Shown here one piece after another: positions 8,361-64,000 of a DNA stretch of 64,000 nucleotides. The notes under the pieces were generated by a model that was not told the DNA's origin, did no database searches, and saw only the letters and a program-made list of their open reading frames with translations. The first letter of the stretch is position 1, and every line of letters starts with the position of its first letter. The position numbers and the translations under genes were made by a program. This DNA comes from Bryoerythrophyllum caledonicum (Eukaryota; Streptophyta; Bryopsida; Pottiales; Pottiaceae), in the NCBI GenBank assembly GCA_963971425.1, contig OZ020526.1:6847976-6911975 (forward strand). The letters run 5' to 3'.

Positions 8361-8612
8361 CAGACTTACCAGGTGGGGGAGGAGGTGGTGGGGCCAAAAC
8401 CCGGCCCCTATTTTGTTTTTGGATGGGGCCCTAAATTTAGCCAAAGGGGGACCTGTAGACTAAATTCAGGCTATAGGCCCCAATTTCGGAAAAAAAAAGC
8501 CAAAAAAAGCCTCTGACCCCCCCAAAATGGGAGGGCCAGAAAAATGAGCCCATGCAATTAAGACGGGCCCCGCTCGGGTAAGTCCGAGCTTGGGGGGTTT
8601 CCTGTCCGCGCC
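8336..8612. mobile_element. MITE with ~30-bp TIR and 10-bp target duplication (Mutator-like)
   Basis: Inverted ends GACAGGAAACCCCCCACGCT / AGCTTGGGGGGTTTCCTGTC extend inward to GACTTACC / GGTAAGTC. It is flanked by the 10-bp direct repeat CTTGCCTTGC (8,326-8,335 and 8,613-8,622). Excising the element with one repeat restores the LINE reading QGKWVTW. A 9-11-bp duplication with long inverted repeats points to the Mutator superfamily. Confidence 0.8.
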
Positions 8613-8959
8613 CTTGCCTTGCCTAGTGCACACCGCCTCGGAATAACCCCAATCGGCATTAAAATGGGTGGTTTCTTCAATCCTCTTCTAGTCGAAGTTG
8701 GCCATCACGACGCGTCCCCACGTTACTCTGCCGCAGTTCGTCAGCCCCTGCGAGATGGCGTTATGAACTTTTGCCTCGGTCCACTCGTGTTGATTGAACA
8801 CCTAGTCATTCCTTGCAATCCACAGAGTCCAGAGCGTGATGCCTCAGAGGAGGACCCAAATCCTAAAATTTCCAGGTAACTTGGTAGTGAAGAATGCTTA
8901 TCTAATGTTGGGTTTGTTCCATCTCTCTCCTTCAAGGTTCCCTACAACGTTGACAATTT

Positions 8960-25022: not shown

Positions 25023-26442
25023 ATGAGGTAAATGTTCTATGCTTGCACGCCGTTCTTCCTGTTCTTCTTCTCGTGGAGTTTGCCTGAAAAAAATCTCAAG
25101 AAAACGGTGTCCCGGAAGTTATTAGGTCTTTTAGGGTTCTGGGGTTTGGGGGTTGGAGATGAAGTCTCTGTCTTAGAGGTGCTCTTTAGAATATCACTTG
25201 TTTGGAGGTGTTCGTGGGGAGGGACCTCGTTAGGGTTTCGGGTTTTCATTCTGAGTTCTCTGTTTTCGGAGTGGCGGTGCCTGGTTGATTTCTAGGGTTT
25301 TTTTTAATTTGTTTTTACTCGAGATGTGAAGAATATACTTTGATTGGAATGTCTGTTTCGGTTTAAGTGGTCGAGATATGGGATGACGGGGTTAGTTTGT
25401 GTCCACTTTGGACTTGGAAGGTTTGGTTTAGGGTTTTGGTTTCCGCGTGTGGTTTTAGGGTTCTGGTTTTGACGTGAGAAGATGATGTCGTTGTGGTTGC
25501 AGTAAGCTTCAGAGCGATGTCCTCAGGGAGGCCATCACCCAGATCACCACGGCCGCGAAGGAGAAGAACAGGAAGTTCACGGAGACCGTGGAGCTCCAGA
25601 TCGGTCTGAAGAACTACGACCCCCAGAAAGACAAGCGTTTCAGCGGGTCCGTGAAGCTGCCCCACATTCCTCGGCCCAAGATGAAAGTGTGCATGCTCGG
25701 AGATGCCCAGCACGTGGAGGAGGTGCGTGCGTTCTAAGTAACGAGGTGCATTGTTTAGGTGTTGGTGGGAGCAGTTGACTGGAATCGCGGCTGAAGTGTT
25801 CGTGTGGAATGGCATGATGGCAGGCGAACAAGATCGGGATGGAGTGCATGGACGTGGAGAGCTTGAAGAAGATGAACAAGAACAAGAAGCTGGTGAAGAA
25901 GATGGCGAAGAAGTACCACGCGTTCTTGGCGTCGGAGTCCGTGATCAAGCAGATCCCGCGTCTGTTGGGGCCCGGTCTGAACAAGGCCGGCAAGTTCCCT
26001 GCGCTGGTGTCGCACCAGGAGTCGCTGGAGGCGAAGATGATGGAGACGAAGGCGATGGTGAAGTTCCAGCTGAAGAAGGTGCTGTGCATGGGAGTGGCCA
26101 TCGGCAACTGCGAGATGGAGGAGAAGCAGATCTTCCAGAACACCCAGATGAGCGTCAACTTCCTTGTGTCCCTGCTGAAGAAGAACTGGCAGAACGTAAG
26201 TAGTGGCGTGAGTGGAATGTCGTTACCAAATTGTTTCATGTGCAAGTCTTGAGAGTCTGTCATTTTTTTGTGTTGCGGTCTGAAATCTGGTTTGCTGGTA
26301 ATCGATATATCTTCTGATTGTGAGCCATGTTGTATATTTTGAGATGTAGAATGTTTTCATTATGTTAATGTGGTTGTTGCATGTACAGGTGAGGGTGTTG
26401 TACTTGAAGACAACCATGGGAGCTCCCATCCGTATCTACTAA
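25023..26442 (+). CDS. RPL10A: 60S ribosomal protein L10a (uL1), copy 1, 4 exons, 216 aa
   Basis: Component of the large ribosomal subunit that forms the L1 stalk near the E site. Exons: 25,023-25,027 (ATG AG), 25,503-25,722, 25,824-26,195, 26,389-26,442, with GT-AG introns. The joined 651 nt give 216 residues, the usual eukaryotic length. It starts [13 protein letters not shown] and ends [12 protein letters not shown] before TAA. The uL1 core includes [16 protein letters not shown], the conserved rRNA-contacting loop. GC-rich codons contrast with the AT-rich surroundings. It is the partner of the inverted copy at 31,268-32,682 and is probably functional. Other open frames here are shadows. 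Confidence 0.97.
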
Positions 26443-26659
26443 TTTTTTCATCATGTAGGTAGCCAGTGGGACCTCCGGTCATAATGGTAGACCGTGCAGA
26501 TGATGTTACTTTGTGGTGGCTGCCACTTTCAATTATTGGAATGTCAGTTTTGCATGCCATCCAGTATTTCGCTGGCTCTTCCTCATATTTTGTTCCATTT
26601 CTTCTTGGAAGTATTGTGTCTGGTTGGTTGGTTGGTTGGTTTCGCGTGCTGATCATTGG

Positions 26660-29018: not shown

Positions 29019-29225
29019 AGTACACTAAACATTGAATATAGTGTAGAGAGATTATTGATGTAGATCAGCAACACTAATTTCCATCAAAGCATGTGCATGC
29101 CAAGTTCTGATTGGGTATTTGTTCTCAAGCAAGTGTGTGTCAGTCAGCAATTGCATGTAAATTTTCAATTAGTGTAGGAAATTTCAAACAGTCTAGTCTA
29201 CACTATATCCAGGGAACGGTGTACT
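29019..29225. mobile_element. Short MITE, family T, copy 1
   Basis: About 205 bp with inverted ends AGTACAC...ATATAGTGTAG. An inverted-orientation copy lies at 51,832-52,026 and a partial one near 56,250. Inserted into TTAA-family copy H. Confidence 0.75.
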
Positions 29226-31060: not shown

Positions 31061-31267
31061 TATTAATCATGTGTAGACCGAATTCATGCCATACCACATT
31101 ATAGTTAGTCACTGAGTCGTGTAGAAAGATTCGAAACATCTACCTCAAGTGTATCATAAGCATTTGCAAAAGTGTGCGCTGGAGCAAAACGAGAAGGTAA
31201 CGAGATAAATTCTCTCTCTGAATAAAAAGTCACGCACGAAACATGATTTACACTTCAAACTCAAGAA

Positions 31268-32682
31268 TCAGTAGATACGGATGGGAGCTCCCATGGTTGT
31301 CTTCAAGTACAACACCCTCACCTGTACATGCAACAACCACATTAACATAATGAAAACATTCCACATCTCAAAATATACAACATGGCTCCCAAGCAAAGTA
31401 TATCGATTACCAACAATAGATTTCGAACCGCAACACAAACAAGACTTGCACATGAAACAATTTGGTGACGACACTCCACTCACGCCACTACTTACGTTCT
31501 GCCAGTTCTTCTTCAGCAGGGACACAAGGAAGTTGACGCTCATCTGGGTGTTCTGGAAGATCTGCTTCTCCTCCATCTCGCAGTTGCCGATGGCCACTCC
31601 CATGCACAGCACCTTCTTCAGCTGGAACTTCACCATCGCCTTCGTCTCCATCATCTTCGCCTCCAGCGACTCCTGGTGCGACACCAGCGCAGGGAACTTG
31701 CCGGCCTTGTTCAGACCGGGCCCCAACAGACGCGGGATCTGCTTGATCACGGACTCCGACGCCAAGAACGCGTGGTACTTCTTCGCCATCTTCTTCACCA
31801 GCTTCTTGTTCTTGTTCATCTTCTTCAAGCTCTCCACGTCCATGCACTCCATCCCGATCTTGTTCGCCTGCCATCATGCCATTCCACACAAACACTTCAG
31901 CCGCGATTCCAGTCAACTGCTCCCACCAACACCTAAACAGTGCACCTCGTTACTTAGAACGCACGCACCTCCTCCACGTGCTGGGCATCTCCGAGCATGC
32001 ACACTTTCATCTTGGGCCGAGGAATGTGGGGCAGCTTCACGGACCCGCTGAAACGCTTGTCTTTCTGGGGGTCGTAGTTCTTCAGACCGATCTGGAGCTC
32101 CACGGTCTCCGTGAACTTCCTGTTCTTCTCCTTCGCGGCCGTGGTGATCTGGGTGATGGCCTCCCTGAGGACATCGCTCTGAAGCTTACTGCAACCACGA
32201 CGACATCAACTTTCCACGTCAAAACCAGAACCCTAAAACCACACGCGGAATTCCCCAACGGAAGAAACCCTAAACCAAACCTTCCAAATCGTCAAAGACG
32301 TATAAGTGAACACAAGCTGACCCCCTTATCCCAATTCTCGACCACTTAGACCAGAACAGACATTTCCATCAACGAATCACCAGAATACATTCTTCACATC
32401 CCGAATAAAAACCAAAAACAGAGAACTCGGAATGAAAACCCTAAACCCTAACCAGGTCCCTCCCCACGAACACCTCCAAACAAGTGATATGCCAAAGTCT
32501 CCAGGCTCCCGTACCATCACCTCTAAGACCGAGACGTCATCTCCGACCCTCAAATTCCTAATGAACCCCCAATCCTAATAAACCTGATGCTGCCTTAACG
32601 CGGTTGCTTCAGTCACAATTTCTGCACACGAGGAGGAGAAGACGACAACGAACGCCGTGCAAGCATAGAAAATTCACCTCAT
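31268..32682 (-). CDS. RPL10A: 60S ribosomal protein L10a (uL1), copy 2, 4 exons, 216 aa
   Basis: Inverted second copy of the uL1 gene. Exons: 32,678-32,682, 31,969-32,188, 31,496-31,867, 31,268-31,321; intron positions and phases equal copy 1, and the total is 651 nt. By eye the coding exons are identical to copy 1 except the stop (TGA instead of TAA). Intron 2 differs at only two positions, whereas introns 1 and 3 carry many substitutions and indels. The start again follows the G-A-T-G-A-G|GT pattern. Homology stops right after the stop codon. Probably expressed, as no defect is visible. Confidence 0.97.
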
Positions 32683-33429: not shown

Positions 33430-35090
33430 TGGGCTCCAAATTGTAAGCCCAACAATGAGAGGAAATAGTTCATTGGGGGTTGTAGTATGACTTTACGATG
33501 TCTAGGGGTAAACATATTAGTGTATTCTTATTAAAAGATGAAGTATATCCTACCGTTCTTAACCCCAAAGGTACCGTGACAGTTTTACATCAAAAACACT
33601 TCAAACAAAATGGATTCTAGTGCAACGAATAGAGAAGGTAACAAAAACTTTGATTTTTAGTTCTGACCGTAGGATCTCAATGAAGGCTTATTAAGTAATA
33701 CATGTACAAAATTTCATAAACTTTGACCGCACAGATTGAAAGATTATAGTGTTCGAAGTCAAGAAAATGGTTCATTTTCTTCCCTGCGTTTAGTGGATCA
33801 ACAGACTTTGACTTCACTTGGTGTCAAAATCTTTCATTGCAAAAGGTCTAAATCTATTACCATCTTGTTAAGCATGATGTTAGCTCCTTACACACCAATT
33901 TTTAGAGGTAGAGACCGGGTGTGGCATATTCAAAACAAGTGTGCAAGGAGTGGAGGCTCGAAATTTGTTAATTCACACTTAAATTTTTTTCGAACTTTAT
34001 ATGTTTTTGATTGATAATCCGAATGGTTAATATGAAGGTTTACATTACATATTGATGTGGAAAAAATAAAAAGTGAAAAATATGAAGATCTCTAGGTTTT
34101 ATGTGGAAAAGAAGAAGTTTTTTTGGTACCTTGCCCGACAATGAGTGACAATGTGTGAAAATGTTTGACTTGGGTTGGTATGCTATTTTTCACTAAAGAC
34201 AAGAATTTTGTTTCGACGACATGCTGGGAAATAATATTACTTGCGAGTATTGAAAATCTCACTTTCAATAGAGTGTCCTATCAAAAGTTTTTGGAGGTGC
34301 CCCAGGTGCCCGCCCTCCCCATTTAAAATTCAAAAACCTATAACTTTTTCATCAAATGTCCAATTCAGGAAAAAAAAAATTCCCACTAAGGTCTTGGTAA
34401 TGTCTTTATATATTTAAAATTTCAAAGAAGAATGTTGGAAATTGACACCATAGGAACGTGACCGAACTTTCAAAAAGCCCTTTTTGGACACTTGGTACCT
34501 TAGGGGTTAAAGTTAGCCAAATCAATTGTTGGATCCAACAATCAAGTTCACTAAATGTTTTAGAGGGTGAACTATGAGCTCATGGTTTCTAGGAGTGAAC
34601 GTGTTAGTATGTAATTATTAAGAAATAGAGTATGTGCTACCCCTCTCAAAGTTAGTGGGATCAATAGTCGGGTCCGAAAATTGAATTCACTAAAATATTT
34701 CAAAGGGATTGTATGAGTTTATGGTTTCTAACTATGAAAATTTGAGTGTATACTTATTCATGAATAGCCTATTTTTCTACCACTCAAAAAGTTAACAAAA
34801 TCGACTGTCAAATCCAATAATTTAATTCATTGAATTGATATTGCACGATTGTACGAGTATATGATTTCTAAGGGTGAACATGTGGGTGTGATTTTGTTAA
34901 GACTTGGTGTTTCCGTTACCCATCTCAACGGTAGGCAAATCAGTTGTTGGGTCCAACAATTGAATTCTCCAAATATTTGTGGAGGTGTAGTATAAGTTTA
35001 TTGTTTTCAGAAGTGAACATGTTAGTGTCCTTTTTTTTTTAAGAAGTGGTGTTTGTGGTATCCCTCTTAAGGATAGGAAAATCAAATCTT
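33430..35090 (+). repeat. Tandem repeat, ~145-bp period, split by a TTAA element
   Basis: At least five diverged units. Each contains a phrase like CAATTGTTGGATCCAACAAT, then ATGGTTTCTAGGAGTGAAC, then GTTAGTGT. The first unit (33,430-33,558) continues after the TTAA-family element at 33,559-34,510. A related, inverted array is at 52,440-53,040. Confidence 0.7.
33559..34510 (-). mobile_element. TTAA-flanked ~952-bp element, inverted full-length copy (copy I)
   Basis: 952 bp from TTAA to TTAA (33,559-33,562; 34,507-34,510), reversed relative to the other copies. Neighbouring repeat units read CTCAAAGTTAG where the joined flanks read CTTAAAGTTAG, so the target was TTAA. Independent support for the TTAA duplication seen at copy D. 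Confidence 0.85.
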
Positions 35091-36336: not shown

Positions 36337-39300
36337 TCAAGAATGTGCAAAAGTGCCACTTTCTAGAACGAGTTTTCCCTCGTTGAAGCTGAAGGTGGGT
36401 GCATGAATGAAGAAGTGGACGTTGGGTTGAAGTTTACAAATCTTCAAAAAAATATAGTACAAATGCTTGCAATACGTGAACGGACTCCGTCCACAAAATT
36501 CGTTCATGATCTTCGTAAAGGCTGGGCATGTACAATGGAGAAACGCGCTCACCGTGATTGTATATGATGTCTCATAAGGGAGAGTACCTGAGTTGAGTGT
36601 GATGATGCATCCGAAGCAAGGATGTGGAACCATGCGCACAGAAGTAATAGATGCGGTGAGGAGTTCGGCTGATCCTATTGACCGTCTTTGATTCGTACTG
36701 GGCTTGGCGGAAGAGCGCTTCAAATTTTTCCCACTCCTTTTCGAAGGCTACTAGTTAGGATAATCGAACACGAAAATGGAATTCAGGTCCAATGGTGGCC
36801 TTCCTGTTGAAAAGAGGCGCCTCGGAGATATTTGTTCTTTCTGTGGGAGATGAAATCGGGCTAGTTGTAAATCCACAATCTCAACGCGAGTGAGATTCGT
36901 GCCAATCATAACCGGCCAAACGTCCAGGATAGGAGGCTTCTCCCTACAAACCCAGGGACGTCTTAGACATTTTACACAACGGTCGATGTCGTCGTTGCAG
37001 TAGTAAAAGTCCGTGGATTTATAAAATTTATTTGCTCTATATTCAAATGTACCAGTGTAGGTAGGTGCAAGAGTTGGCTTTCCTCGTCTCACAATCCTCT
37101 CCGTGCATTTCTTACTAATTCCCCTACGTTGTGCCCAACACTTCTTAGCCGAGTTGGCCAGCACTCAAGGAATATGCGTTGGATTGGCGTTGGTCTCTTG
37201 TATTGCTGTAACAGGGCGAATTCCAGCCCTGCATACTAAAGACGCATTCAGAATTGGATGCGGCGTTTGTGATGGTGAAACCTTTTCATTTGGAATACCA
37301 TCATTTTCGTCAGTAATGGGCACAGGTATAGATGACGTTCGAAGTCGTCTAGAGGGATACCGAGGATGAGAAAAGTTTATCCTATCGAGACGATGTGATT
37401 CGTCGTCGGCACCAAGTGGTAAATTGGTCTTCACTTAAGTGTGCCAAACACTTCCTTGCCCTGCACATAAGAATCACCCGTACAGAATTCATTTGCCCCC
37501 GGCATATCCATCATGAGATCGCCTAGAACACGTGGATCGCCCGTCTTTCGGGCTCTTCGTTCGGCAGCACGAAGCTTCAACTCTTCTTTGCTGGGACATG
37601 TCCCTCCAGCACTACATTTCTGAAATTGATAATAATTAACCACTTGAAGAAATGCCCGGACGTAATCATCTATGGTTGCGACGTAGAGATCTCCACCGTT
37701 ATTGCCCAAAGCTTGCTTCGATTTGTTGTGGATGGATTCGACAAGATTATAAGAAGGCATATCCGCGAGTTCATCTTCAGACATGCTTTGTACAAAATCA
37801 TGCACGTTTATTACAGAGATTAAATGTAAAAGAACCAAGATGGTACATGTACAAAGAAATAATACATGAGTCATGAATCCACCCCACTGTCGATAACGAA
37901 AGTGCCAGAATGCCAACCAAAGATCAAAGTGCTGAAACCCACTTTCCGAGACAGCTCCTTAGAAAGCCCACGATGCACGAATAGATTGATATAATTTCTT
38001 AGCCACTTCCATAGTAATGGCCTTCATGTATTGTTGGCATAGTGTGTTGTGTTGTTCTCGTAAAGGTCCTTCAATGATGTACTTGTTAGAATGCTTCACC
38101 ATCAATTGTGCCCAATGGAATTGATACATGCGCTCTCTATCCACATCAGTTTGTCCTTGTTGCCGCTACTGTAGATAATCCAAACAACATTCCAATTAGC
38201 TTGGGCACTGTCGGCCATAAATCCTTTAAATTGTGCTGACGGAAGTCCATGTCGAGCCATCACAACGTTTAGATTTTTCCAAAATAACATCTGCTCTGCC
38301 GCATCCTCCGACTACATATTACAGCATGTAATGCTCATGACACGACAGTAGGTGGCGTCATACACATGGCATGCCATGGTTGTCTATCCCTTCATACGTT
38401 TAACGTGATCAAACATCAACCAGACATGTTCCAAGTCACCGCCTTTTTGCATACGCTTCACCAAATCGACGCCAGAACCCGGTCCACTTCTGACATCTTG
38501 AATACAAATATCTTTTCTAAATCATCACCTGGAAACATGTTCTTCTGAAGAAATGGCCAATTGCTAAGTCCCCGTAACCTCGTGATGCTGTCTAATACGC
38601 CATACTTCTTAAGGTACCAAAATGAAACCACTTTGTTACAAATACTTGGAGATCCCATGTCCTCGCACTTACCTGACATTGGAACTAACTCCTCAAAACT
38701 AAACAGTCTCTCTGGATTGTCCTCTTCGCGCAACAAAAATTCTCCCACAAGGTCCTTACTTGCCTCTAAAACTATGGAACTTTTAGTGGCAAGCTGAGGG
38801 GTTCTTTGAATTAGATCACTAATTAAGGAGTTGATACCCTCCTTGACATCTCGATAATCCCCTACTCTTACAAGATGGTTGTGTGACCCTAGATAAATAC
38901 AAGTACGTGTGATATTGTGCTTGCTCGAAACATAATAAACTATAGCAAGGCATGATGCAAGACATGAGGGGGCATGCGACAAATTTTGCAAACTAATGTC
39001 GAGTCCAAGGGAGGTACATGACCTGGAGTAAATGGAAGGAGCGTAACTCCTTCGAATTCCGTAACATTAAACGGTGTCGTCCGATGGTTTCTCTGCAAGA
39101 ATTCACAATCAGGATTGTTGCATCGTAGATGCCCGACACACTTAGAAGTCTGGAAGTGTAGCCCGTGGTCATTGATGATATTCGATGTGATGGTCTTCGT
39201 CCACACGTGTCCATCGTATCTTTTGCCGATGCCATGCATGGACTTTGCTTGAATAGATGACGCCGACGGTTGCGTAGGAGGAAGCTCAAAAATGACATCA

Positions 39301-40028
39301 CCATTAAATTGGTGCGGAAGATAATCTACTTTCATATGGCACATTCTATTGTAGTCTAAAAGTTTCAAAGGATTTTTACAACGTGAACGGGAACGCAGAT
39401 GTCTCAAGCACGATAGAACACTAAGTATAGAGGAGCCAATTGGACGATCAAGAGGGCATGACATTGGAGTATGAGATGTAGGAAGGTATGACACCGGCGT
39501 GGTAGTCTTAGGTGGGCACGACATGAGAGTGGTATTCTGAGGGGGACAAGTCGGTGGGATAGAAAACTTTGGCTGACAACTTGTATGAGAGGGGGACTCA
39601 TCATCCGAGGACAAGATTACCACGCTCTCCATACCAAGTTCTACCTTCACTCCAACTCCAGCTCGGAGTGGGGTGTGCATGCTACATGACGAGGACCGAT
39701 GAGGAGTATGGATATGGGTTGGGGTAGAGATTGTAGAATCTAAGAGTCCATAAATCCTATACTGTCATGTGGCAAGTTTTCACACTCTCTGCGATCCCAC
39801 GTCCACAACGTATTGCATAGCGATAGTATGAGTGAGCTCCGCGGTTACCTCGCCGTAGACTTCTTCCTCAATGTAGATACCCTGCAAGAATGAGAATCCG
39901 AGACTCAATAACAAGGAAGTCACTGATGCGACGCCGTCACTATCTAAACGACAAGTAAGAGGCACGCCGACGCCACTGGCACGAAGAAAAACAAGTGAAG
40001 GCGCTGGAGCTTGAGAAGATGAAGCCAT
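36337..40028 (-). pseudogene. Degenerate MULE-type transposase with SWIM zinc finger
   Basis: Minus-strand pieces in order. MASSSQAPAPSLVFLR starts at 40,028. A Cys-rich block follows (KCVGHLRCNNPDCEF, then STLVCKICRMPPH), then CIYLGSHNHLV with EGINSLISDLI. Next is a DDE-like transposase core: FDHVKRMKG, HVYDATYCRVM, FKGFMADSAQANWN, ERMYQFHWAQ, then AFWHFRYRQWGGFM. The C-terminal SWIM-type finger reads HCTCPAF...YCKHLYY. Several frameshifts (e.g. near 38,150 and 38,470) and stops break it; one TAG sits where related proteins would have Gln (M*SEDA). Intron-like gaps may remain. A fragment of the same family lies at 10.8 kb. Probably a decayed Mutator-like element or domesticated relative. Confidence 0.75.
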
Positions 40029-41700: not shown

Positions 41701-41775
41701 CTTGAGAGGACGTGAGGAAGTAGGCAGACCTCATGAAGATGGTCCCTATGGCGAAGAAGATGAGGATGGATAGAA

Positions 41776-43713
41776 ATGGGCACGAAACGGAGAGACGAAG
41801 AGCCGGCCGTTGCGCTCCCTTCCTTGATAGGAGTTATTTTGGACATCCTAGCAGACCTAGACAAGTACAACATGCTGGAGGAGAGCTTGAAGACCATAGG
41901 GTGCGAAGGCTTGCTCGAAGTCGCCTGCGGCATCCGGGAGGAGGTCTACGTCCGGGAGCTTGTAGGCACTCCGGACCCAAAGTACGAAGGGTTGCTGCGA
42001 GCCCATCCGGAGCTCTGGGGAGTTCCGGAGTGGACCCAGACATACCACTTTCGGGCCGGCTGCACCAAGGTGGTGGAACAACGAGACGAGTTCCTGGTGG
42101 AGGAGTTCGAGGGACAAGCCGACCCGAAAGAGGGCTACAATATGCAAGACCTTCGGCACCGAGATGCCCAGCTGGTGCTAGGGTTTTTAAACCCTATTTT
42201 CCATCCGGAGAAGCCGAGGCGGGTGGTGGCAAAGTGGGCCTGCACTTTCCTCGGAGCACTCCGGGGGAAGATCGTCGTGGACTGGAGGATGTTCATGAGC
42301 AAGATGATCAACCGTCTCGTGGCAAACCTCCAGAAGGTCAAGAAATCGGCAACCCCACTGGCCTCCTATGTGGTGCACTATTATTGTCATGACTAACAAC
42401 TCACTCCAGCAGAGGTGAGACAGTATGTTGAAGTCCTCAGCCTCCAGAAGTACGGAAGTGAAGAGTTGGAGGAAGAATCTGGAGGGGCAACAGAACCAGT
42501 ACCGAAAGCAACAACTGTGGACACTCCGGAAAAAGACCGGAGGACTCAGAAGAGGCCTCGTGGGAAGGAGCCACTACTGGAGAGTCCGGACATCCGCATC
42601 TCCTCCCCATCGTCCAGAGAAGATGACTCTGGACCTTCAGCGGAAGCCAGCCCGAAGAGGAGGAAGATTGACCCGGTGGATTCCAAGGGTCAGCTGAAGG
42701 AGATGGATGATCTCCTGCATGAGGTCGGCTGGAGAGTGGCCATCCTCAAGGAGACCAACTACATCGTCACCACCGGGATAGAGCAGATCTTTCGGAGTCT
42801 GGGAGTCAGCTGGCAGGAGAACGTCATCAACAGCGAGGAAGATCTCCGGAGAAGGGAGACCCACACGAAGGCGTTGCACCTTCAAATCTCCACCATCTAC
42901 AAGGCCAACACAGAGATAGAGAAGAAGGAAAACACTATCTTTAGGAGATAGCGCTGGCGGCGGTGGCGTGGAGATAGGCGGAGGCAAAGGCGAATGCATG
43001 CGCCGCTGTCGTGACGGAGGTCTGGAAGGCCCTGGAGTTTCCGGTAGGCGTGGTCAACCGGAGCCAACTATTCACCGAGCTGGTGGAGAAAGAGAAGAAG
43101 GTGAGCAAGGCCAACAACATCCGGTTTCTCCTGGATCAAGCAGAGAAGATGGGTCAGATATGGGAGCAGATGAAGCTGCTGGTCGATAACATCACCTTTA
43201 TGGTTCCGGAAGACCAGGCAGCCCTAGTACCGGAAGGCGTTACGACCCGTGGACGGACCACGGCCCCTCCGGAACCACCACATCCCAAGTCAATTCTTGC
43301 TCCGAGTACCTCGGCGAATTCGAAGTCCCCGAATACTCCGTCACCTCGGACACCGACAGAGGGCATCGTATCTCCTCTCTTGTACGAGTGGGATACTGAA
43401 GAAGCTGTCGGATCTGCTGTCGCCACCAAACATGCGTCTGCTAGATCCTCCGGCAGAAGACGACCCCCAACCACCTCCGAAGTCCGTATACCGGAGGTTG
43501 GCGCCCGAAACTGGAAGTCCCTCCGGAAGTTACAGGGACTTGGTCCAGGAGGCCAGGTCAACTTCTGAGCCGGAACCACTAGCACTTCCAGTTCCGGAAG
43601 GGTCACCGGAACATCCACCTCCACCACCGTCTACCCGAACTCCAGCGACCGGACCGACGACTCGGAAGACTAATATTTTGCCGGCAACAGCGAAGAAGGC
43701 GAAGGGCAAGTAG
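41776..43713 (+). pseudogene. Broken GC-rich coding region, unknown family
   Basis: Three segments: 41,776-42,951 in one frame broken by TAA at 42,394; 43,011-43,568 in a second frame; and a Pro-rich tail to 43,713 back in the first. The N-terminal ~200 residues look globular (GFLNPIFHPEKPRRVVAKW, FMSKMINRLVANLQKVKK). The middle is acidic with KRRKID, and then a helical, coiled-coil-like part follows (RSQLFTELVEKEKK). The tail is Pro/Thr/Ser-rich. GC content and heavy use of CCGGAR codons differ sharply from the neighbours. It resembles the accessory or gag-like proteins of plant retroelements in layout, but I do not recognise the family. Confidence 0.5.
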
Positions 43714-45679: not shown

Positions 45680-47339
45680 ATGGGGAAGAAAAGAGGGAAG
45701 AAGAGGGCGTTAGAGGTTGAGGATGTTGAGTTGCACGTGGTAGAACTAGTGGTCGTCTCGGCTGGACTTAGAAAGCAACGTAAAGGAAGGAATGCTAGAA
45801 AGGTTAGGATGGCCAGTAGAAGGGAGGGGATGACTGACAGTGAGAGGGTGGACATCCATGTTTTCAAAAGGCAGAAGGTAAGATGCTAACAACGGTTGTG
45901 CGGGAAATGAGGGGGATTAGGGTTTAGGGTTTCAAGCAGATTTTGGTTTTAATCTAACCGATTATGGGTTTTGCTTGAAAATGAGAATTAATGATGCGGA
46001 AGAGGCCCCTCCAGACATAAACGAAGACGAAACCTTAGTCAGACTCCAGATGCGGCGAGTGCAGTTGATGTCGTCAACATCGACAGCGGTGGAGATGATG
46101 GAAGGGAGCTAGCCGAGGTGATAGAGTCGGCGGAGGAAGAAGATGTGGAGGGGGATGAGTCGGAACGAAGGCGGAAGGGAAAGATGACCGCAGACCTAGA
46201 GGAGGACAATCCAGAAGATGCGACCGAGCAAGAATCAGAGGACGATGTTGCGAGTAGTGAAGAGGAGGACGAATTGAATCAGGGCGAGAGCGATGCGAGA
46301 AGTATAGAGGAGGACGACAATGCGGACGAGAGTCAAGGGGGAAGTGCGGACGGAGCTGGAGCCCTCATTGGTCTCAACAAGGCGGACAATGAGGTGGCAA
46401 CAAGACAAAAGAAAGGGAAGGGATAGAGGAGGGAAGCATCCCTTGACGAAGATGTCGGACTCCTTGGAAACGATCCCGACATTGATATCAATGAAGTCGA
46501 GAAGAGAATGGGACTAGCGTACAACCCCGATGCGTTTGCAGCCATTCATATGATGCAGCAAAACCCAATTGAGAAGTTTTCCAGGCTCCAGATTCCTCTC
46601 TGCCGGATGTTGCCAATGCAAGAGCTATGGGGAGTTCACGATAACGACAAGATGCGGCTGATGGGAGAATTTCAGCATGGAATTCGACCTGATAAAGCGG
46701 TCTTCTACGTTGTGCTGATTGGAAGAAACGGGGAGGAGGTTGCAGTCGCCAGCGACACCAAGATTAAATGGTCTGATAGGTAGACTACTATCAACGATGG
46801 CTTCGAGAGATCATTGGCAAGGGACCCTGACCTAAGAGAGCTTTGTGGTAAAATGTTCTTCATATATGACGGTAACCACCGACACGAAGCTTGGATGGAA
46901 GTTGTTAATTTGAAGAAGGCGGGTGACCAAGCGTTCCACTTGGTGCACGGTCAACCCGAATGCACTATTGTCGACATCACTGCGAGCGGCTACCCTAAAA
47001 TCATAGCCGCGATGCAAGCCGTTAATAGGTACATCATGAATTTCATTGTAAATTCATTAGTTTAAATACAAATTTTGTGATTAAGCTAATTATGATTCGT
47101 CCTATCAGCGCCAACGAAAGATCATTCGTAAAGACAAATACAATGCACGTGCTGGATTGAATCAACGTGTTTGGGAGAAAGCCATTGCAGTATTTTACCG
47201 ACTTGATTCTACATGACAAATACAATCAGTGCCTCAAAAAGGGCTTTGGTTCATGGTATCCAATCCATGCATTTCAGGTATGATTTCAATTATGATTTTT
47301 GCATTTGTAGCTAAATTAGTTTAATGATTTGATATATAT

Positions 47340-47445
47340 TATATCTAGTAACTGACGTAGTGTCTATTAGTTAACTGAAGTGGTGTCTATTAGTTAACTG
47401 AAATGATGTCTATTGGTTCATTGAAATGATGTTTATTACTAATCA
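47340..47445 (+). repeat. ~25-bp tandem repeat in intron
   Basis: Three to four copies of a unit containing GTGTCTATTAGTTAACTGAA, drifting toward the right. It lies in the intron just before the 47,458 exon. Confidence 0.75.
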
Positions 47446-47734
47446 ACAATTATGCAGAATGAGATACACGAGGCGACTAGGGACGAGCGAGTCGCATTCT
47501 CATTTGATACAAAAGCCGAGGAACAAACCGGGGCAAACATGCGGTAGCATGTGCAGGTGGCTATGGTCGCCAAAAGAGAGAAACTAAAACAGAAGTTTGT
47601 CAACCTTGTTAGTGTCGCGAACCCTGCAAATGGCCCTGAGTTCTTGGACCAGGTAATTCGTTGCTTCTGCCACTTATACTGCTTCCTATTTCCTTCTAAG
47701 AAGATCATCGTGGATTAGGGCCCCATTGGGGCCC

Positions 47735-48650
47735 AGCTCTATTGTACTAAGCCACTTCTTCCCACAACAACATTTCTCGAAGTTTGGCCGCAATGGAGCC
47801 CTACCCATGGTGTACCTCTTGGAAACGAGAGGGACACCATGAGTTGGGCTCTATTGCGGCCCAACTCTAGGGATAACACCCTCTCATTCCGAGAGGGTGA
47901 CACCCCTGAAGTTGGGCCGCAATGGGGCCCTACCCATGGTGTACCTCTTGGAAACGAGAGGGACACCATGAGTTCGGCCACAATAGGGCCCAATCCATGG
48001 TGTCACCCTCTTGGAAATGAGAAGGACACCATGAGTTGGGCCGCAATAGGGCCCTACCCATGGTGTACCTTTTGGAGACGAGAGGGACACCATGACTTGG
48101 GCTCTAAGGCGGCCCGACTCTAGGGGTGTCACCCTCTCGTTCTGAGAAGATGACACCCATGAAGTTGGGCCGCAATCGGGCCCTATCCATGGTATCAACC
48201 TATGGTTTCCAAAAGGTATACCATGGATTGTCACCCTCTCGTTTCCAAGAAGGTGACACCATGGGTAGGGCCCTATTGGGGCCCAACACGACGGGTGTCA
48301 TCTTGTCGTTCCGAGAGGGTGACACCCCTGGAGTTGGGCTGCAATAGATCCCAACTTATGGTTTCCTTCTCGTTTCCAAGAGGTACACCATGGGTAGGGC
48401 CCCATTGCGGCCCAACTCTAGGGGTGTCACCCTCTCGGAACAAGACGGTGACACCATGGGTAGGGCCCCAATGCGACCCAACACCATGGGTGTCACCCTC
48501 TCGTTCCGAGGGGGTGACACCCTTGGAGTTGGGCCGCAATCGAGCCCAACTCATGGTGTTCCTCTAGTTTCCAAGAGGTACACCATGGGTAGGGTCCAAT
48601 TGCGGCCCAACTTTAGGGGTGTCTCCCTCTCGGGAAGTGAGGGTTATTCC
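47735..48650. repeat. Palindrome array 3: about 14 hairpins, ~65-bp spacing, in an intron
   Basis: Alternating palindromes of two types, GTACCTCTTGGAAACGAGAG and GTGTCACCCTCTCGTTCCGA (with their complementary halves), near 47,811, 47,874, 47,939, 48,001, 48,061, 48,126, 48,192, 48,229, 48,295, 48,357, 48,423, 48,491, 48,555 and 48,619. Spacers are variants of GTTGGGCCGCAATGGGGCCC, themselves partly palindromic. The array sits between the exon ending at 47,652 and the coding block near 48,700-48,950 of the ParB-methylase locus. Confidence 0.85.
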
Positions 48651-51366
48651 CTAGGTTGAGGCAGCAATAGATCCGACTTCCATTGATAATTTCGTCTCCT
48701 TGTGATTTGCTAGTTCAGATCTGCCTTCATTATAGTAGGTGCATTGGGACAAGAATAGAGATGGGTCTTGAGAAGCTCCAGCTAATAGCAACCACTCATG
48801 TGCCTGCAAAGTACAAAGTCGACCGGATGAAAATTTGGAAATCGTCAGAATTCTAAAGGAACGAAATGCATTTCCCTTTCCATCCTTGCGAAGAGTCTGA
48901 TCTGAGGTTGTGTATCAAACAGGCAGTGTTCTATGCACTAGTGAGTTTTTCTTACCCAGGATGATGCGTTATCATTTGTAAACATCCTACTCGATTCTAA
49001 CGTGTACTTTCCATTAGATTGAGGAAGAAATTGCAAAAGACATGGACGTAGAGTTAGAAGGGCTAGCAATGAATTGGAAGGTTGTGGACAAGCCTCTAAA
49101 TTAGAGAGCATATTTGGAGGTTTGGAAAACGCGGCTTTGGAGCCATGCGTTCAACGGAATCTTCAGTGGAAAGATGCCATTCATAAGGCTGACGAAGTGG
49201 GATGAGTTCAAGCCCAAGCGGGAAATTGCGAAGCGGTTCATGTATCGCTACATTAGGCATGAGCTCTACTTGAAGGGGGCTATGGTGGAGCTTCCCAATT
49301 AGATGGAATCAGCTTTTGCCTTATTGTCTTCCACTTGCATGTATTTGGCCAATTAGACGAAAGTGTATCCTATTCCTGATTCGAAAGAGTGTTGCTGGTA
49401 TGTGGAATGCAGCAGAAACTATTGCTACGACACCGAACAGTCCATTAAGGATGCATGCGGGCCATTGATGGCGCCAGTTTGCTTGAGAAGGTTGCACCTC
49501 TAGTGGCGGAAAAGGCTTCTAAGAACAAACGTGGTCCTCCATTGAGTCCAAATTCCAAACGCATTCAAGCTAATTTGAGGGCAAAGGAGTAGTGAGACAA
49601 ACAAAAAGCCGAGAAGAAAGTTGAGATAAAGAAGAAAGAAGCCGAGGCAAGAAGGGAAGAGGACGTTGTTGTCGAGGATGTTGTTGTTGCTGAGGTTGAT
49701 GTCATGGCGGAGGAGACGGGGGCAACTCTGTTTGAGCAACATGCGGATGAGCCTGCAAATCTACAGGACTTAGTCACAAGAGCCCACGGAGAGGGAACCT
49801 CCGGGGAGGACCGGGCTACTATGATGGAAGTCACCGACAGAGCTACCCAAGAGCGCCCTTTAACGTTCCATGTGGTTCGCCCAACAACCCGACAGCAACC
49901 ACCTCGCTTGTCAAAGTCACCGTCATATGGTACCTCGCAGATTGCACAACAATCCAAATCGGTTCAGCTTTCGCATTTGCAACCACTAATTGATCCCACG
50001 CCAAGTCTACTCATCCCGACTTCGCCAATTGAAGGTATGTCTCATGGTCAAGTTGAATTAATTTTAAATTCTTCGATTTGCAAGGCCGTCTGGCAAGAGA
50101 TCACCAATTTGTAATGTCTAGCAACGAGGAGAAGAAGTGTGTTGTGGATGGAAAGACTATGGAGATAGAGGCGTCAGTTGATCTCATTTTTGCGGAGGTA
50201 CCGGATAATCAACTTGTGTCTGGCGTCTCTGATAATGTGCCGTCATGGAATGTTCTCGATCTTCACTGGATGAAGAATATTTTCTCCTTTGCCAACAAAT
50301 TTCTGCACGACGACGGAGGGATGTTCATTGTGTATGTTGATGACCACGAACTGACAAAGAAAACCATTCAGTCATTCTTCGCGGCATACGGTTTCCAGTT
50401 TCACCAAGAGTGGTACGGAGTCAACGGAATAAACACGTGGAGTGAAAGGCCACATGGCACCTTTTCGGGTAGTCCTTCTTATTCGAGCACCGTCAATTGT
50501 TCAGCCTTACTTGGTCCAACGAAAGTCCAAGTTTTGATTCCGCACCAACAAGGCTCTGATTGATATAGACATTGACATATTCCAAGGCGATACTATTTGG
50601 AATTTCGTAACAAAGGAAACCCAGACATCGACCAATGGCAAAGTCTAGCGGAGAGCGAAGGAGCGTGGGCAATACTTCTATTCCTCGTTGATTTTGTCAG
50701 CAAGTGACGAGGTGAGCATTGTTGTAGACGTTACTGCAAGGGTTGGTGAGTCTATCATAAACTATATTGTGGTCCTTTTTTCTATTATTTTAAACCCTTT
50801 GATTGTTATGCTTTTTGTAGGCGCCTCAGTAATTGTCTGTTAGGACCATGGAAGACGCATTATTGCTCTTGAGGCTGATTAGGAGGTATTTCAAGCATTG
50901 CTTTAGCCAATGATTACTATTCATGCTGATGACGACGAAGTATCAGGTGGAAACGATTCAATTGATCCCGAAGAGCTACAAGAGGATGTTCTGGATGCAC
51001 AATTGGACTTAGACGACTAGGACTTCGTGCCAACACCATTACCGAAGCGTTCAAAAATTTTCAGGCAGTAAGTAGAATGGATGGAATTCGGTATATTTTC
51101 TAGTATGCAAACTAAACATCGCTCAAAGCTTTTAAATTGTTTTTTTGTTTCAATGCTTAACATTGAATCATACTATGAGCAGCACACCTTCTTTTGCGTC
51201 TATGCCTGTTTATGCTAAGGACATGGCAAATGCACTTGCAATTTTGAAGTCGCCCCCAACTAGAAGGAGCAAACGAAGGCGGGATGATCTAAACTTTGGT
51301 GTCATGAAGTTCATTGATGACCAAGCTACTGTAGAAAATACTTTGGAGTCGTCTTTTGACTCCTGA

Positions 51367-51831
51367 TAAGTACCTTTGAGACTTTCGGGCATGTATGACT
51401 TCCGGATTTTAACATGAAAATACTTCATCATGATAATGGCTCGTAACTCTGACTTTGTAGTGAAAAGTTGTAGGTTTTGTGTAAAAAGTTATTCTCTTTC
51501 GGGAAAAAGTGTAAAAAATGATGTTTTTTGTATGAAAAAAGTTCAAAATTTGGCATGGGTCTTTCCATACACGTCATTTTCAGGGTTTTTGGCGTGGCTC
51601 TTTTCACCTTCTTACAAATACTTTTCGGTATTTGTTTTTTTTGCATTTTTTGCATTTTTTAAGCGATTTTGCCTGAATTGTGCATGACAAGGTCACATAT
51701 GCTCGCACATGCTTTTTCCCACGCTCAGCTCAATTTCGTCTCAAGTCGTTGAGTCCGTAATTGCGACCGCGGTGATGCCTTCCACTTTGGTTGTCCACTG
51801 CAATCTCTCACACTTGAATAGCTACACCGTT
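51367..51831. other. Intergenic stretch
   Basis: T-rich, with GCATTTTTTGCATTTTTT near 51,642. No gene is seen. Confidence 0.45.
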
Positions 51832-52026
51832 CTGTGAATATAGTGTAGACCAGACTATTTGAAATTTCCTACACTAATTGAAAATTTACATGCAATTGTT
51901 GACTGACACACACTTGCTTGAGAATAAATACCCAATCAGAACTTGGCATGCACATGCTTCGATGGAAATTAGTGTGAGTGATCTACATCAATAATCCCTC
52001 TACACTATATTCAGTGTTTAGTGTAG
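51832..52026. mobile_element. Short MITE, family T, copy 2
   Basis: Near-identical reverse complement of the 29,019-29,225 element over about 195 bp, with the same inverted ends (CTACAC... / ...TTAGTGTAG). Non-coding. Confidence 0.8.
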
Positions 52027-53340
52027 TTTCCTTGGATAAGTTGGTTTGGAAGTCAAAGAAGCTCGAGATTCATTGACAACTATATGAGGAAGCTTGGCCA
52101 ACCGATGACCTTGCGTTTTGTTACCAATCTCCATTACCTTTCTACTTGCGACATGATTGGGGCTACTGTGAACGTATTACACAAAAATCGATTGTACTAG
52201 TAGGTGCCTCCAAACTCGAATGACGGCGTCGATTGATTTGGATGATTTAGTTGATTTAGGTTATTTGGGCTTATACCTACGCCAATGACTATGTACTTAT
52301 TGTGACCATTCACCTCTTTAGTAAAACAATATTTTTGACTAGTTTATTATTATTGAGTATGTATTTGTTCCACCACAAACCACATACCCCAAAATGATTA
52401 AACAATCAATCTTCAACCTTTGACAGTGAGACTTTCTAAAACTATCATACTTTAAATGCACCCATTTCTTTCCTTTGAGATCTAGACATTATTGTAAGCC
52501 CTCCAGATAAATTAAAGATTTCAATTGTTGGACCCTACAATTGATATGTTATTCTTTGGAAATGGGGACAACTATAAGCCTTTTAGGCTCAAAATCAAAA
52601 TTATATTGCACTCAATACACCAATCAAGTACATGGGCTTGCTAAGAGAAATTTGTAAATTCAATTGTTGTATTCAATAATTGAATTAGGTTCTATTCACA
52701 AGGGGTACATACACCCTTGAGTAACTTCACAACATGAATCCACCCTAAATCTAACAACATTTCTACCCCCCTGAAATATCAATTGATTTCAATCATTGAC
52801 ACCATCAATTGAATTTGCTATCCCTCAGAGGGGTTACATGCACCCTTGAGTAATATGTGAACATGAATTATTTAGCAACTGAAGTTCAAAATGTCTATTT
52901 ACACCCACTAAAATATTTATTGACTTCAATTGTTGGACCCAACTATTGATTCCACTTTCTTTGACAGGGTGGCACATACATCCTTCAATACTCAAAAAAT
53001 ATTAACAACCTACACCCCTAGATTGCACTCTTTCAAATTCCCCCTTCAAACGTTTGATCTCAACAACCATACTCTCCATTTTGAGCCTTCTTGCTGGAAG
53101 TGAAGCGCTCAACACCTTTCCAGCTCTCTACTATCGGAGGTCCTTTATACCTCTTGGTCATGTGCACTGATACTGGAACCAACAGTGCATTATATAGGCA
53201 TGTGGGATCTCTCAATCTCTCATGTATTGGAATCATGGACCAATCAATGAAAGGGGGGGTTCTTTAGAAGGCAACCCATATGTTGTGATTCTCTGGGGAC
53301 AAGGGAAGAAAGATAATTGCTACATTGTTGGAAGGATTGA
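52027..53340. repeat. Intergenic region with inverted relatives of the 145-bp repeat
   Basis: Between about 52,440 and 53,040 there are three to four diverged units with TCAATTGTTGGACCC and GGGGTTACATGCACCCTTGA. They are the reverse-strand counterparts of the 33.4-35.1 kb array. No gene is seen in the rest. Confidence 0.55.
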
Positions 53341-60649: not shown

Positions 60650-61365
60650 TTGATAGAACAGCATTACAAGTTATTAGGTACACATACTCGAACTCCAGGT
60701 ACATACTGGATATGCACTACAGTAACTGTATTTTCCTCACGTCTAAATACAAAAAACATACGTATACACATACTGGATTATGTACATATATACACATATA
60801 TATACAAATACAAATCCAAGTACGAACTCATATACTGATACGTATATAAATACAGATACATATTCAAATTCAAGTACGAATACGAATACAAACACAAATT
60901 CATATATAGATACAGGCACGAAAACATATACGAACAAAACTACAAACTCAAACGAGAAATTAAATACAAGAATGGATGGAGACACAGATACAGACAGGAG
61001 TACAGACGCTATTCAGAAAATTAAGAAAATAAATACCCAAACAAAAACCTATCAATCACCGAAAAAATTAATACACAAAATGAAAACAAGAATAATAATA
61101 AAGATATATAACTCCTCACACAGTCCAAGTGAAACAGAAAACTCAAATCCCAACAAAAACACTCTCCATAACTCAACTCTCAGACTATACACACAAAACC
61201 TCTATACAAATACTAATAAAAAAACGGAAACAAATACTAAGACAAATATTGAGACACATATTAATACAAAAAGACAGAAGAATACTAATACTAATACAAA
61301 TACACATATAAATACAAAAACAACTACATATCATCAAAGATACACAAACAAGAACATAGGAACAA
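60650..61365 (+). repeat. Thr/Asn-rich low-complexity DNA
   Basis: A/C/T-rich runs built from ACATA, AATAC and AAATACA words, which read as T-N-T-N in one frame (open from 60,780). It is similar to 62,800-63,100. It probably arose by slippage; whether it is translated is unknown. Confidence 0.6.
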
Positions 61366-62585
61366 ATAACAGTACTAAAAATAGAATACGCTTCCTAAGG
61401 AAAACAGAAATAAGGGATGGAAATTTAGCCAAATTAGGAATGAGAATTCAGTATAATAAGAATAAAAATATCAAGAACATAACTATAATCTGCAGTACAA
61501 AAAATAGGAAAAACTTCCTAAGAGAAAGGAAAATAAGAGTTGGAAAATTAACCAAATTAGTAATGAGAAGTAAATATAATAATAATACAAATATGAAGAA
61601 AAGAGCTATAAACTGGCGGACTAAAAATAGAAAATGCTTCATAAGAAAATCAATAATAAGAGATGGAAAATTAACCAAATTAGTAAAGAGAAATAATTAT
61701 GAAAAGAATAAAAATATTAAGAATACAACTATAAAAAACAATACTAAAAATAGAAAAAGCTTCCTAAGAAAATCAAAAATAAGGTATGGAAAATTAACCA
61801 AATTAGTAATGAGAATTAATTATGAAAAGAATAAAAATATTAAGAACACATCTATAAAAAACAATACCAAAATTAGAAAATGCTTCCTAAGAAAAAGATA
61901 AATAAGGGATGGTAAAATAACCAATTTAGTAATGAGAAGTAAATATAATAAGAATAAAAATATTAACAACAGAGCTAAAAACAGCAGGACTAAAAAAAGA
62001 GAATGCTTTATAAGGAAATCAGAAATAAGGGATGGAAAATTAACAAAATTAGTAATGAGAATTAATCATGATAAGAATAAAAATAGGAATGAAACAGCGA
62101 AAAACAACAGTACTAAAAATAGAAAATGCTATATAAGAAAATCAAAAATATGGGATGGAAAGTTAACCAAATTAGTAATGAGAATTAATCATGTTAAGAA
62201 TATAAGTATTAAGAACACAACTAAAAACAACAGCACTAAAAATAGAGAATGCTTTGTAAGAAAATCAAAAATAAGGGATGGAAAGTTAACCAAATTTGTA
62301 ATGAGAAGTAGTTATAATAAGAATACAAGTATTAAAAAAAAAATTTAAAAATAGCAGTTCTAAAAATAGAAAATGCTTTGTAAGGAAATCAAAAGTAAGG
62401 GATGGAAAGTTAAACAGATTAGTAATGAGAAATAGTTATAATAAGAATACAAGTATTAATAACACAGCTATAAATAACAGTACTAAAAATAGAAAATACT
62501 CTCTAAGAAAAAGAAAATTAAGGGATGGAAAAAGAACCAAATTAGTAATGAGAAGTAATAAGAATAAAAATAGTAGAAATGTGTT
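61366..62585 (+). repeat. Ten tandem 123-bp repeats encoding 41-residue units
   Basis: The marker GGGATGGAAAATTAACCAAA (and variants) starts at 61,414, 61,537, 61,660, 61,783, 61,906, 62,029, 62,152, 62,275, 62,399 and 62,522. Every step is 123 except one of 124, caused by an extra A in an A run near 62,335. Units translate as a Lys-rich peptide (KSKIRDGKLTKLVMR, then NKNKNIKNT). The frame is open from 60,780 except for a TAA at 61,899, then closes at 62,346 and continues shifted to 63,195. Confidence 0.9.
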
Positions 62586-62809
62586 GAGAGTATGTAGAAT
62601 TATTAAAATAGGAGGTTGGATTACTGTGTCGCCGGCCGGTTTGGCGCCGAAGGTGACAAAAATAGACTTACTAAAAATAGAAATTCTAATAAAAGTAATA
62701 ATATATACGAATCTGATTGAAATAAATATCAATCTGTTTTTAGAAATCATAGCTTTAGACAAAATATGTTTAGAAAGAAATCTTTTAGGAAACTCATTAT
62801 TTCAATATA

Positions 62810-63100
62810 CGGGTACATATACTGATACGTATACTGATACTTATACTGATACATACACCGATGAGTATACTTATAAATATACTGATACAAATACTGGTGC
62901 GTATACTGATGCACATACTTGTATGTATATAAATACAATTACTTATACTTATACAAATGCAAATACCAATACAAATAGTGGTACGTGTACTCACACGAAT
63001 ACTAACACAAATACTAACAAAGATATTGATACAAATACCAAGACAAAAACCGTGACATACACTAATACAAACATACAAAAGAATACTAATATAATATCAC
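62810..63100 (+). repeat. 12-bp TACTGATACRTA-type repeat and T/N-rich tract
   Basis: At least five copies of ATACTGATACRT near 62,815-62,900 give a TDTYTDTY reading, then diverge into ACTAATACAAAT words. Related to the tract at 60,650-61,365. Confidence 0.8.
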
Positions 63101-63235
63101 ATAAAACTACATACACACACGCAAAGACAACCACACACCATCAACGAAACACATACATATACATACACACATACAAAGACAAACACATACAATAAAAAAA
63201 ACACAAATACCACATTCAAAAACAAAAAATTCTAA

Positions 63236-64000
63236 AACAAAATAAAAAAACCCATCTACTACAAACTACTAATATTAATTGGAGGAGACATGGAGACTAA
63301 TCCCATGCCGAACATATTAAAAAGACACCCCGCTTCGCACAAAAAGAATGCCAAAACATATTTCATACCAAATACTAATACAAACACCAAAACAAACAAT
63401 TGTACAAACCACAAAGTATATAATAACACCGCATATAAAAAAAAGGACTTAAAAACCACTTTAAAAACCAACATAAACCCACATACAAATAGTCTTAAAC
63501 ATAATAGTTACATATGCACACGGACAAAAATTACGAAGATAAAATACAACCAATCATACATACATACATACACTACTAAAACAAAAACAACCACAAAAAA
63601 CACATGGACAAAAAATAAACTAAAGACGAAAACAACTACACCTAATATAAAAATAAATAAACCCACAACTCACACACAAAATACAAATATCCACCTACCC
63701 CCAAACCAACAAGTCATAAATAACACAACAAAGCATTTAAAATACACCACTAAACATATATACCACAAACTTCTACTACTTCTAGGAGGAGACATTGAAA
63801 CCAACCCGGGACCCATGCCCAATATACTAAAAAGACATCCTACATCACATAAGAAAAATGCCAAAATCTACTTTATACCTAATACCATAAAACTCCAACC
63901 AGAATATGAACACATTGCAAAACCCTTCGCACCATTTCTAAAAAACACACATATATTACACCACATACAAAACACTTCCCACCCAAACATTGCCCAGTAC
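63236..64000 (+). CDS. Start of ORF2-like frame with two 2A-type motifs (3' end outside window)
   Basis: Open in one frame from 63,236 to the window end. A complete 2A-like motif, LLLLLGGDIETNPGP, lies at 63,770-63,814, with the expected skip between Gly (63,809-63,811) and Pro (63,812-63,814). It is followed by MPNILKRHPTSHKKNAKIYF. The same block occurs 504 bp (168 codons) upstream, at about 63,263-63,370, as LLILIGGDMETNP-MPNILKR. There, six nucleotides encoding Gly-Pro are missing, so skipping should not occur. Between the copies the frame is T/N/K-rich. The sequence after the second motif probably leads into the endonuclease/RT beyond the window. Confidence 0.6.

Follow-up and report, generated by a model that had tools for sequence, protein, structure and literature searches.

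A decayed ParB/methyltransferase-like gene in a moss genome, probably the second gene of a large Mutator-like DNA transposon

A spliced gene joining a ParB-like region to a methyltransferase-like domain was found at 45680..51366 (+) in a 64,000-nucleotide stretch of the Bryoerythrophyllum caledonicum genome (G000:C15:6847976-6911975; this whole stretch is called the window, and the genome comprises 437 Mb in 894 contigs). We consider it probable that this gene belongs to a large Mutator-like DNA transposon with two genes, of which it is the second, here in a decayed copy, and that its product is a ParB-like/pseudo-methyltransferase accessory protein. The parts of this reading are not equally firm. 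The identity of the element and of the gene can be held with considerable confidence. The accessory function of the second protein is proposed only tentatively.

The paralogues cited below were grouped by their identity to the window's copy: subfamily A (~59-87%), subfamily B with its relatives (~39-51%) and subfamily D (~34-35%). In our exon model, the gene runs from an ATG at 45680 to a final TGA at 51366 and has nine exons, all on the forward strand. Exon 1 (45680..45877) is an open frame with a Lys/Arg-rich start (MGKKRGKKR...) and the donor AAG/GTAAGA. Exon 2 (45995..47028, 5′ border provisional) encodes an acidic stretch and then the ParB-like domain with DGNHRHEAW. The end of the ParB-like region is in exon 3 (47109..47277), which keeps the splice frame and is 50% identical to subfamily B; exon 4 (47458..47652) keeps the frame as well. 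Exon 5 (48719..48940; 41% identity to subfamily D) belongs to an element-specific middle region, and exon 6 (49018..50034), ~83% identical to a 611-aa (amino acid) stop-free frame of subfamily A, encodes an element-specific domain and a charged linker. By profile alignment, exon 7 (50085..50745) covers the methyltransferase-like domain from AEVPD, in the place of motif IV, up to motif I. Exon 8 (50821..51070, 3′ border approximate) completes motif I and contains motif II, and exon 9 (51181..51366, 5′ border approximate) is open to the TGA and encodes a basic C-terminus. Six GT...AG introns join exons 2 to 8 (47028/47109, 47277/47458, 47652/48719, 48940/49018, 50034/50085 and 50745/50821). Their phases are 2, 0, 0, 0, 1 and 1, and the frame is kept except where exons 6 and 7 are themselves broken. 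The order in the product is thus acidic region, ParB-like Box II region, element-specific middle and methyltransferase-like domain in beta layout.

An earlier reading of the bare letters (the sequence-only reading) had quoted several motifs from this gene. All of them are real and lie where it had placed them, in one spliced gene according to the open reading frames (ORFs) and the exon model. DGNHRHEAW sits in the open frame 46784-47062 (+) and VDLIFAEVPDNQ in the open frame 50057-50560 (+). The intron 50746-50820 splits VVDVTARVG/GAS, and HGRRIIALEAD is in the next exon. The fusion also proposed there, of a region with a ParB-type Box II and a methyltransferase domain in beta layout, was borne out by the spliced profile matches and the frame-keeping introns.

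The same reading had called this copy broken, and it is. Exons 2-8 as modelled contain 16 in-frame stops (12 TAG, three TGA and one TAA), and there are frame breaks near 49450 in exon 6 and near 50460 in exon 7. Another break lies in the acidic region near 46000, where its placement is provisional; one supposed in exon 3 was dropped once the splice site was applied. The window copy is a pseudogene. As it has retained its introns, it is a DNA-level copy and not a retrocopy. The excess of TAG (12 of the 16 stops, within 45995-51060) has no single cause that we could find. Between repeats, the C/T mismatch rate was 0.089 at CHG, 0.075 at CHH and 0.135 at CG, and CAG/CTG was depleted in the window (observed/expected 0.727). 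At the 12 TAG sites, subfamily A has W at four, Q at four at most, and R, K, S or L at the others. Therefore, neither CAG-to-TAG decay via CHG methylation as the general cause nor a variant code with TAG as Q could be upheld.

We searched the same genome with the methyltransferase part as query, accepting matches at E values up to 0.001 and scoring the best candidates. There were 133 matching stretches, including the window's own two, and some genes account for two rows. Many of them lie in long stop-free exon frames, and 11 rows of subfamily B have stop-free frames of 569 aa. Intact paralogues, which the sequence-only reading had suggested looking for, were found in part: many have stop-free frames, but these are frames of exons, and in no copy could the gene be followed from end to end in an open frame. 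Twenty paralogous regions, chosen mostly for long frames, were fetched. A match to the ParB-coding exon was present upstream on the same strand in all 20, some of the regions being cut at the edge. This constancy argues against chance neighbours, and the possibility that the two parts belong to separate genes failed on the same evidence, their order and strand being the same in every region.

In subfamily D, the ParB exon is preceded by a divergent gene that comprises frames of 718 and 343 aa. The 718-aa part occurs at 25 full-length places in the genome with 88-100% identity, and 20 of these are stop-free. This transposase-like gene was found 8.5-9.8 kb off, in divergent orientation, at 14 of the 19 methyltransferase places of subfamily D. 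The one copy of subfamily B examined (L268) also has a transposase-like gene upstream (44.7% identity). In the window, tblastn with the 718-aa and 343-aa frames revealed a decayed counterpart at 36841..39998 (-), with collinear matches at E values of 5e-124 and 8e-62. Read by eye, the protein shows a zinc finger followed by a D...D...CxxH...E-like pattern, which we take to be that of Mutator-like and related transposases. Among the Pfam transposase families, MULE included, none matched either frame at an E value of 1; hence, 'Mutator-like' describes a way of working and not a membership. A second transposase-like lineage exists (748-aa frames, the 72-73% group); no methyltransferase match was noticed near it, and a partner gene was not searched for.

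Over 15.9 kb, an identity of ~99.3% was measured between two copies that lie on different contigs. Four copies share their terminal base, and the DNA beyond is unrelated. One copy could be delimited (C3:33867786-33884462; 16,677 bp). It has imperfect inverted ends sharing CA and GCTAGTTTGTGAGC, and the 10-bp direct repeat GTACTTAGGT, which occurs two times among the 299,370 bases counted, flanks it on both sides. In the window, we found a tentative pair of subterminal inverted repeats. The left candidate (34518..34960) contributes a 71-bp inverted match (83%, E value 2.6e-12) with shorter ones beside it, and its partner on the right (52499..52979) has internal direct repeats. They bracket both genes, contain palindromes and imply a span of ~18.4 kb, and they may be the ends of this copy.

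The transposase-like gene, the inverted ends and, in the one delimited copy, the target duplication support the connection to a mobile element that had been suspected from the letters. They do not agree with the further idea of a modification system turned into a nuclear gene family, since the gene rides a multiplying DNA element. The fusion may have been acquired horizontally. A related explanation, in which a host gene family was domesticated from a bacterial or phage source and has the transposase-like gene as a coincidental neighbour, might draw on the existence of phage ParB-methyltransferase fusions (L202; also surveyed in the consulted part of PMC12704722) and on the paralogues with stop-free exon frames. 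It is largely refuted and in our view very unlikely, in the face of the near-identity of two copies on different contigs, the abrupt end that four copies have in common although their flanks are unrelated, the target duplication and the recurrent divergent transposase-like gene. The large size of 16.7 kb would suit the remnant of a virus that had integrated, or of some larger cargo element, with the transposase-like gene as only one of its genes. ParB and methyltransferase genes are also typical of phages and giant viruses. Among the frames of at least 130 aa listed for the delimited copy, the long ones come from the two genes, and the few others measure 130-138 aa (no profile search of these, and no search for viral genes, was made). 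The target duplication and the inverted ends fit a DNA transposon, and such a viral or cargo remnant has hardly any probability left.

When spliced, the methyltransferase-like 3′ part scored 30.6 bits (E value 1.4e-11, for one sequence) against our own profile of 15 phage methyltransferases, compared with a maximum of 6.0 bits in the shuffle control (2000 shuffles, 1376 listed). The two halves alone scored 9.4 and 24.2 bits. Among the 346 window ORFs of at least 60 aa, the motif-IV ORF 50057-50560 was the best match to a methyltransferase profile (9.2 bits; next 2.8). With the intron removed, PF01555, the methylase family named by the sequence-only reading, was the top Pfam family, at an E value of 0.0099 and 16.3 bits, which is below the cut-off of 26.7; its alignment covers positions 54-239 of the query and 29-217 of the 221 in the profile. 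Only weak unrelated families were returned by Pfam for the separate pieces and the unspliced reading, and the methyltransferase exon of subfamily A alone matched PF01555 at an E value of 0.22. Sequence-profile alignment across the domain gave probabilities of 92.4-95.5%. Motif IV comes before motif I in the profile alignments, as in the beta layout. When the halves were swapped, the total score was practically unchanged (30.5); the motif order is accordingly read from the alignment and not from the score. In a tblastn search of the window parts against phages and plasmids, the one sensible match was the Syn19 DNA methyltransferase (E value 4 in the collection, 5e-6 pairwise). Searches of viral contigs with the window proteins gave nothing useful. 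PHROGs returned one family of unknown function for 50102-50560 (E value 0.0018) and nothing else useful, and the PDB sequence search returned designed TIM barrels and other weak matches, which we took as chance. Judged by these alignments, the 3′ part appears to be related by fold to the beta-class N6/N4 methyltransferases (PF01555), and the enzyme activity of the class is putative here.

We then read the catalytic motifs in the paralogues. There were 38 loci, two of them duplicates (L230 = L265, L231 = L246), leaving 36 distinct places with the window's own excluded. The motif IV tetrad was readable in 33: EIPD in 10, EVPD in nine, QVPD in four, DVPE in three, EVSD in two, and EIRD, DVPK, EMPD, EVPN and KVPD in one each. 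A (D/N/S)PP(Y/F/W) tetrad was present in none, and the PP pair and the aromatic fourth residue were absent from all. The EVPD of the window had been taken for a damaged DPPY. It is also found in paralogues whose exon frame is stop-free, and it is therefore a trait of the family and not damage. In motif I (DxxxGxG-like), the last glycine was present in all 31 readable distinct places and the aspartate in 30 of 31, whereas the middle glycine was variable. The replaced tetrad together with the kept motif I suggests an inactive or altered enzyme. It could also be argued that the element encodes a working methyltransferase of the beta class, in which motif IV has the unusual form (E/Q/D)(V/I)P(D/E), and that this enzyme marks the element's DNA, for example to steer or protect it. 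The invariant last glycine of motif I and the kept beta layout would agree with such an enzyme, as would the phage homologue H188 with its non-canonical DLPY tetrad. The loss of the PP pair and of the aromatic residue in 33 of 33 places makes it unlikely, as does the bdelloid N4CMT, in which the change of SPPY to APPA abolished activity, according to the consulted part of PMC8885841.

The ParB-like part has DGNHR, the Box II core (GxxR, with its conserved arginine), in the window and in subfamilies A, B and D; the paralogue alignment of the profile-profile comparison below was chosen on it. Distant subfamilies have the variants DGNHRYEAW and DGNHRLLAW, with the flanking pattern kept. In viral contigs, the pattern DGNHR(L/F)EA was found in 40 stretches and 39 ORFs, of which 37 had a ParB-like look by eye, the exceptions being L188 and L225; a longer Box II pattern had no match there. 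One of these viral-contig sequences, L202, is itself a ParB-methyltransferase fusion with the ParB part first. Against a ParB profile, 46784-47062 was the best of the 346 window ORFs (15.7 bits; next 5.9). Against a ParB profile built from 27 of the viral-contig ORFs, the window part scored 14.2 bits, compared with 4.1 at most for full shuffles. A profile-profile comparison of the window part with its paralogues against phage ParB domains gave a probability of 94.4% (E value 8.6e-8), compared with 0.22% for the methyltransferase control. The ParB exon of subfamily B matched DUF1015 at an E value of 0.0072, below the cut-off. On these comparisons, a ParB fold of the 5′ region is likely, not proven.

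Several observations weigh against the reading given here. For the ParB-like part, the ORFs of the profile had been picked for DGNHR[LF]EA, and of 2000 shuffled sequences in which the motif was left intact, 239 scored equally high. Pfam ParBc did not match the 5′ region, and the AlphaFold models were of low confidence (pLDDT, the predicted local distance difference test, 32.5 and 48.4). Several copies of subfamily B have a ParB exon whose own frame is split. For the element, five of the 19 subfamily D places have no transposase-like gene within 12 kb (in two it is 20 and 25 kb away), and the by-eye reading of that protein has no profile behind it. Both ends were delimited in one copy only, and a direct search of this copy revealed no near-perfect terminal repeat. 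A target duplication was not found at the window copy, whose ends and duplication are uncertain. Neither the gene nor the transposase-like frames contain any part that reached the curated cut-off of a Pfam family.

Some of these points would suit a different account of the 5′ region, in which the ParB label is wrong and an element-specific fold contains DGNHR by chance, the remainder of our reading standing. The weak profile support outside the motif, the unmatched ParBc and the low-confidence models speak for it, and one of the 39 viral ORFs with DGNHR[LF]EA (L188) looked by eye like a different S-adenosylmethionine (SAM) methyltransferase. The conservation of the motif and its flanking pattern in distant subfamilies and the profile-profile match speak against it. 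The DUF1015 match does so too, this domain (spelled DU1015) being among the ParB-CTPase fusion domains in the consulted part of PMC12704722. We regard a mistaken ParB label as a real but minor possibility.

If the gene is the second gene of a two-gene transposon, the following mechanism might be proposed. The transposase-like protein would move the element by cut and paste, and the second protein would serve as a DNA-binding accessory. Its ParB-like part may load onto element DNA with nucleotide, and its methyltransferase-like part may bind DNA and SAM without the usual methylation. The accessory might aid transposition or prevent silencing of the element, as MURB or VANC do in other plant elements, to which a sequence relation is not known.

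Repeat arrays are present within the gene. A GGGCCC-rich array of direct and inverted repeats occupies 47716..48660 in intron 4, and related repeat frames were found in the introns of L246 and L265. Subfamily D has ~230-bp tandem repeats between the ParB and methyltransferase exons (L256, L257 and L259, ~830-2200 reversed). One speculative scheme, which we think improbable, is a parS-like anti-silencing system that stems from bacteria. A ParB-type clamp with a SAM-binding pseudo-methyltransferase would load at these internal arrays, i.e. the GGGCCC-rich palindromic one in intron 4 of subfamily A and the ~230-bp tandem one in subfamily D, spread along the element and block or compete with host cytosine methylation. 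In Arabidopsis VANDAL elements, VANC proteins bind tandem-repeat non-coding element DNA and cause loss of methylation (consulted part of PMC10398659). With arrays in the introns of the present gene, a similar role is worth testing. Both cases combine a DNA transposon, an accessory protein and repeats in non-coding parts; anti-silencing by the present protein is only proposed.

MuDR and other Mutator-like elements have a mudrA transposase and a mudrB accessory, and the MuDR genes are convergent. Our element resembles them in its two genes, inverted ends, a target duplication of a length typical for them (10 bp, within 9-11 bp) and the D...D...CxxH...E-like pattern read by eye. It differs in that its transposase-like frames have no Pfam match, its genes are divergent and its second gene has other domains. 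Closer in domain content are the phage proteins in which a ParB-CTPase domain is fused to N6_N4_Mtase (PF01555), as described in the consulted part of PMC12704722. The likeness is a ParB-like part and a beta-class methyltransferase in one protein in a mobile-element setting. In contrast to those fusions, as far as that source describes them, the present case is a spliced nuclear gene in a plant DNA transposon, with several hundred element-specific residues between the parts and the tetrad replaced. The main text of PMC12704722 contains no word beginning with 'plant'. The bdelloid N4CMT and the Marchantia N4-methylcytosine enzyme (consulted part of PMC8885841) are likewise bacterial-type amino-methyltransferases in eukaryotic nuclear genomes. 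N4CMT is described there as an active SPPY enzyme and is set apart by that description from a multicopy element gene that has no SPPY/DPPY and has a ParB-like partner. Among the papers listed by a full-text literature search, none described such an element, judged by titles and the beginnings of abstracts, most subscription journals being outside its coverage.

The finding brings a phage-type ParB-like/beta-methyltransferase-like fusion, its catalytic motif replaced throughout the scored places, into the gene set of what is probably a DNA transposon multiplying in a eukaryote. Should the protein bind the element's DNA or counteract methylation, plant transposons would have a new route of silencing evasion. 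The finding also carries a warning for annotation: in plants of this kind, apparent families of 'ParB' or 'DNA methylase' genes may belong to transposons and not to host modification systems.

Some other features were noticed in and around the element. Between its two genes, GC-rich open frames lie at 41724-43713 (+); two of them were tested without a Pfam match, and they are perhaps a nested insertion. A 203-bp sequence with inverted ends, resembling a miniature inverted-repeat transposable element, occurs just downstream of the gene (51823-52025) and again at 29021-29223, the two being 93.6% identical. In L256, a remnant that by eye looks like a hAT-like transposase (7931-8764, reversed) lies directly past the right end of the element. 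Scans for tRNA and Rfam families gave nothing useful. Exons for a coatomer-like WD40 protein were recognized by a WD40 profile match. Inverted copies at 25340-26447 and 31263-32372 are 93.8% identical and include what by eye is an exon of ribosomal protein L10a. The WD40 exons and the L10a copies have the look of nuclear DNA from a land plant or another streptophyte. Frames resembling those of long interspersed nuclear elements were seen at 63236-64000 (+) and also at 60747-63195, with GGDMETNP/GGDIETNPGP, which we take to be a 2A-like peptide signature, after long Thr/Asn-rich repeats.

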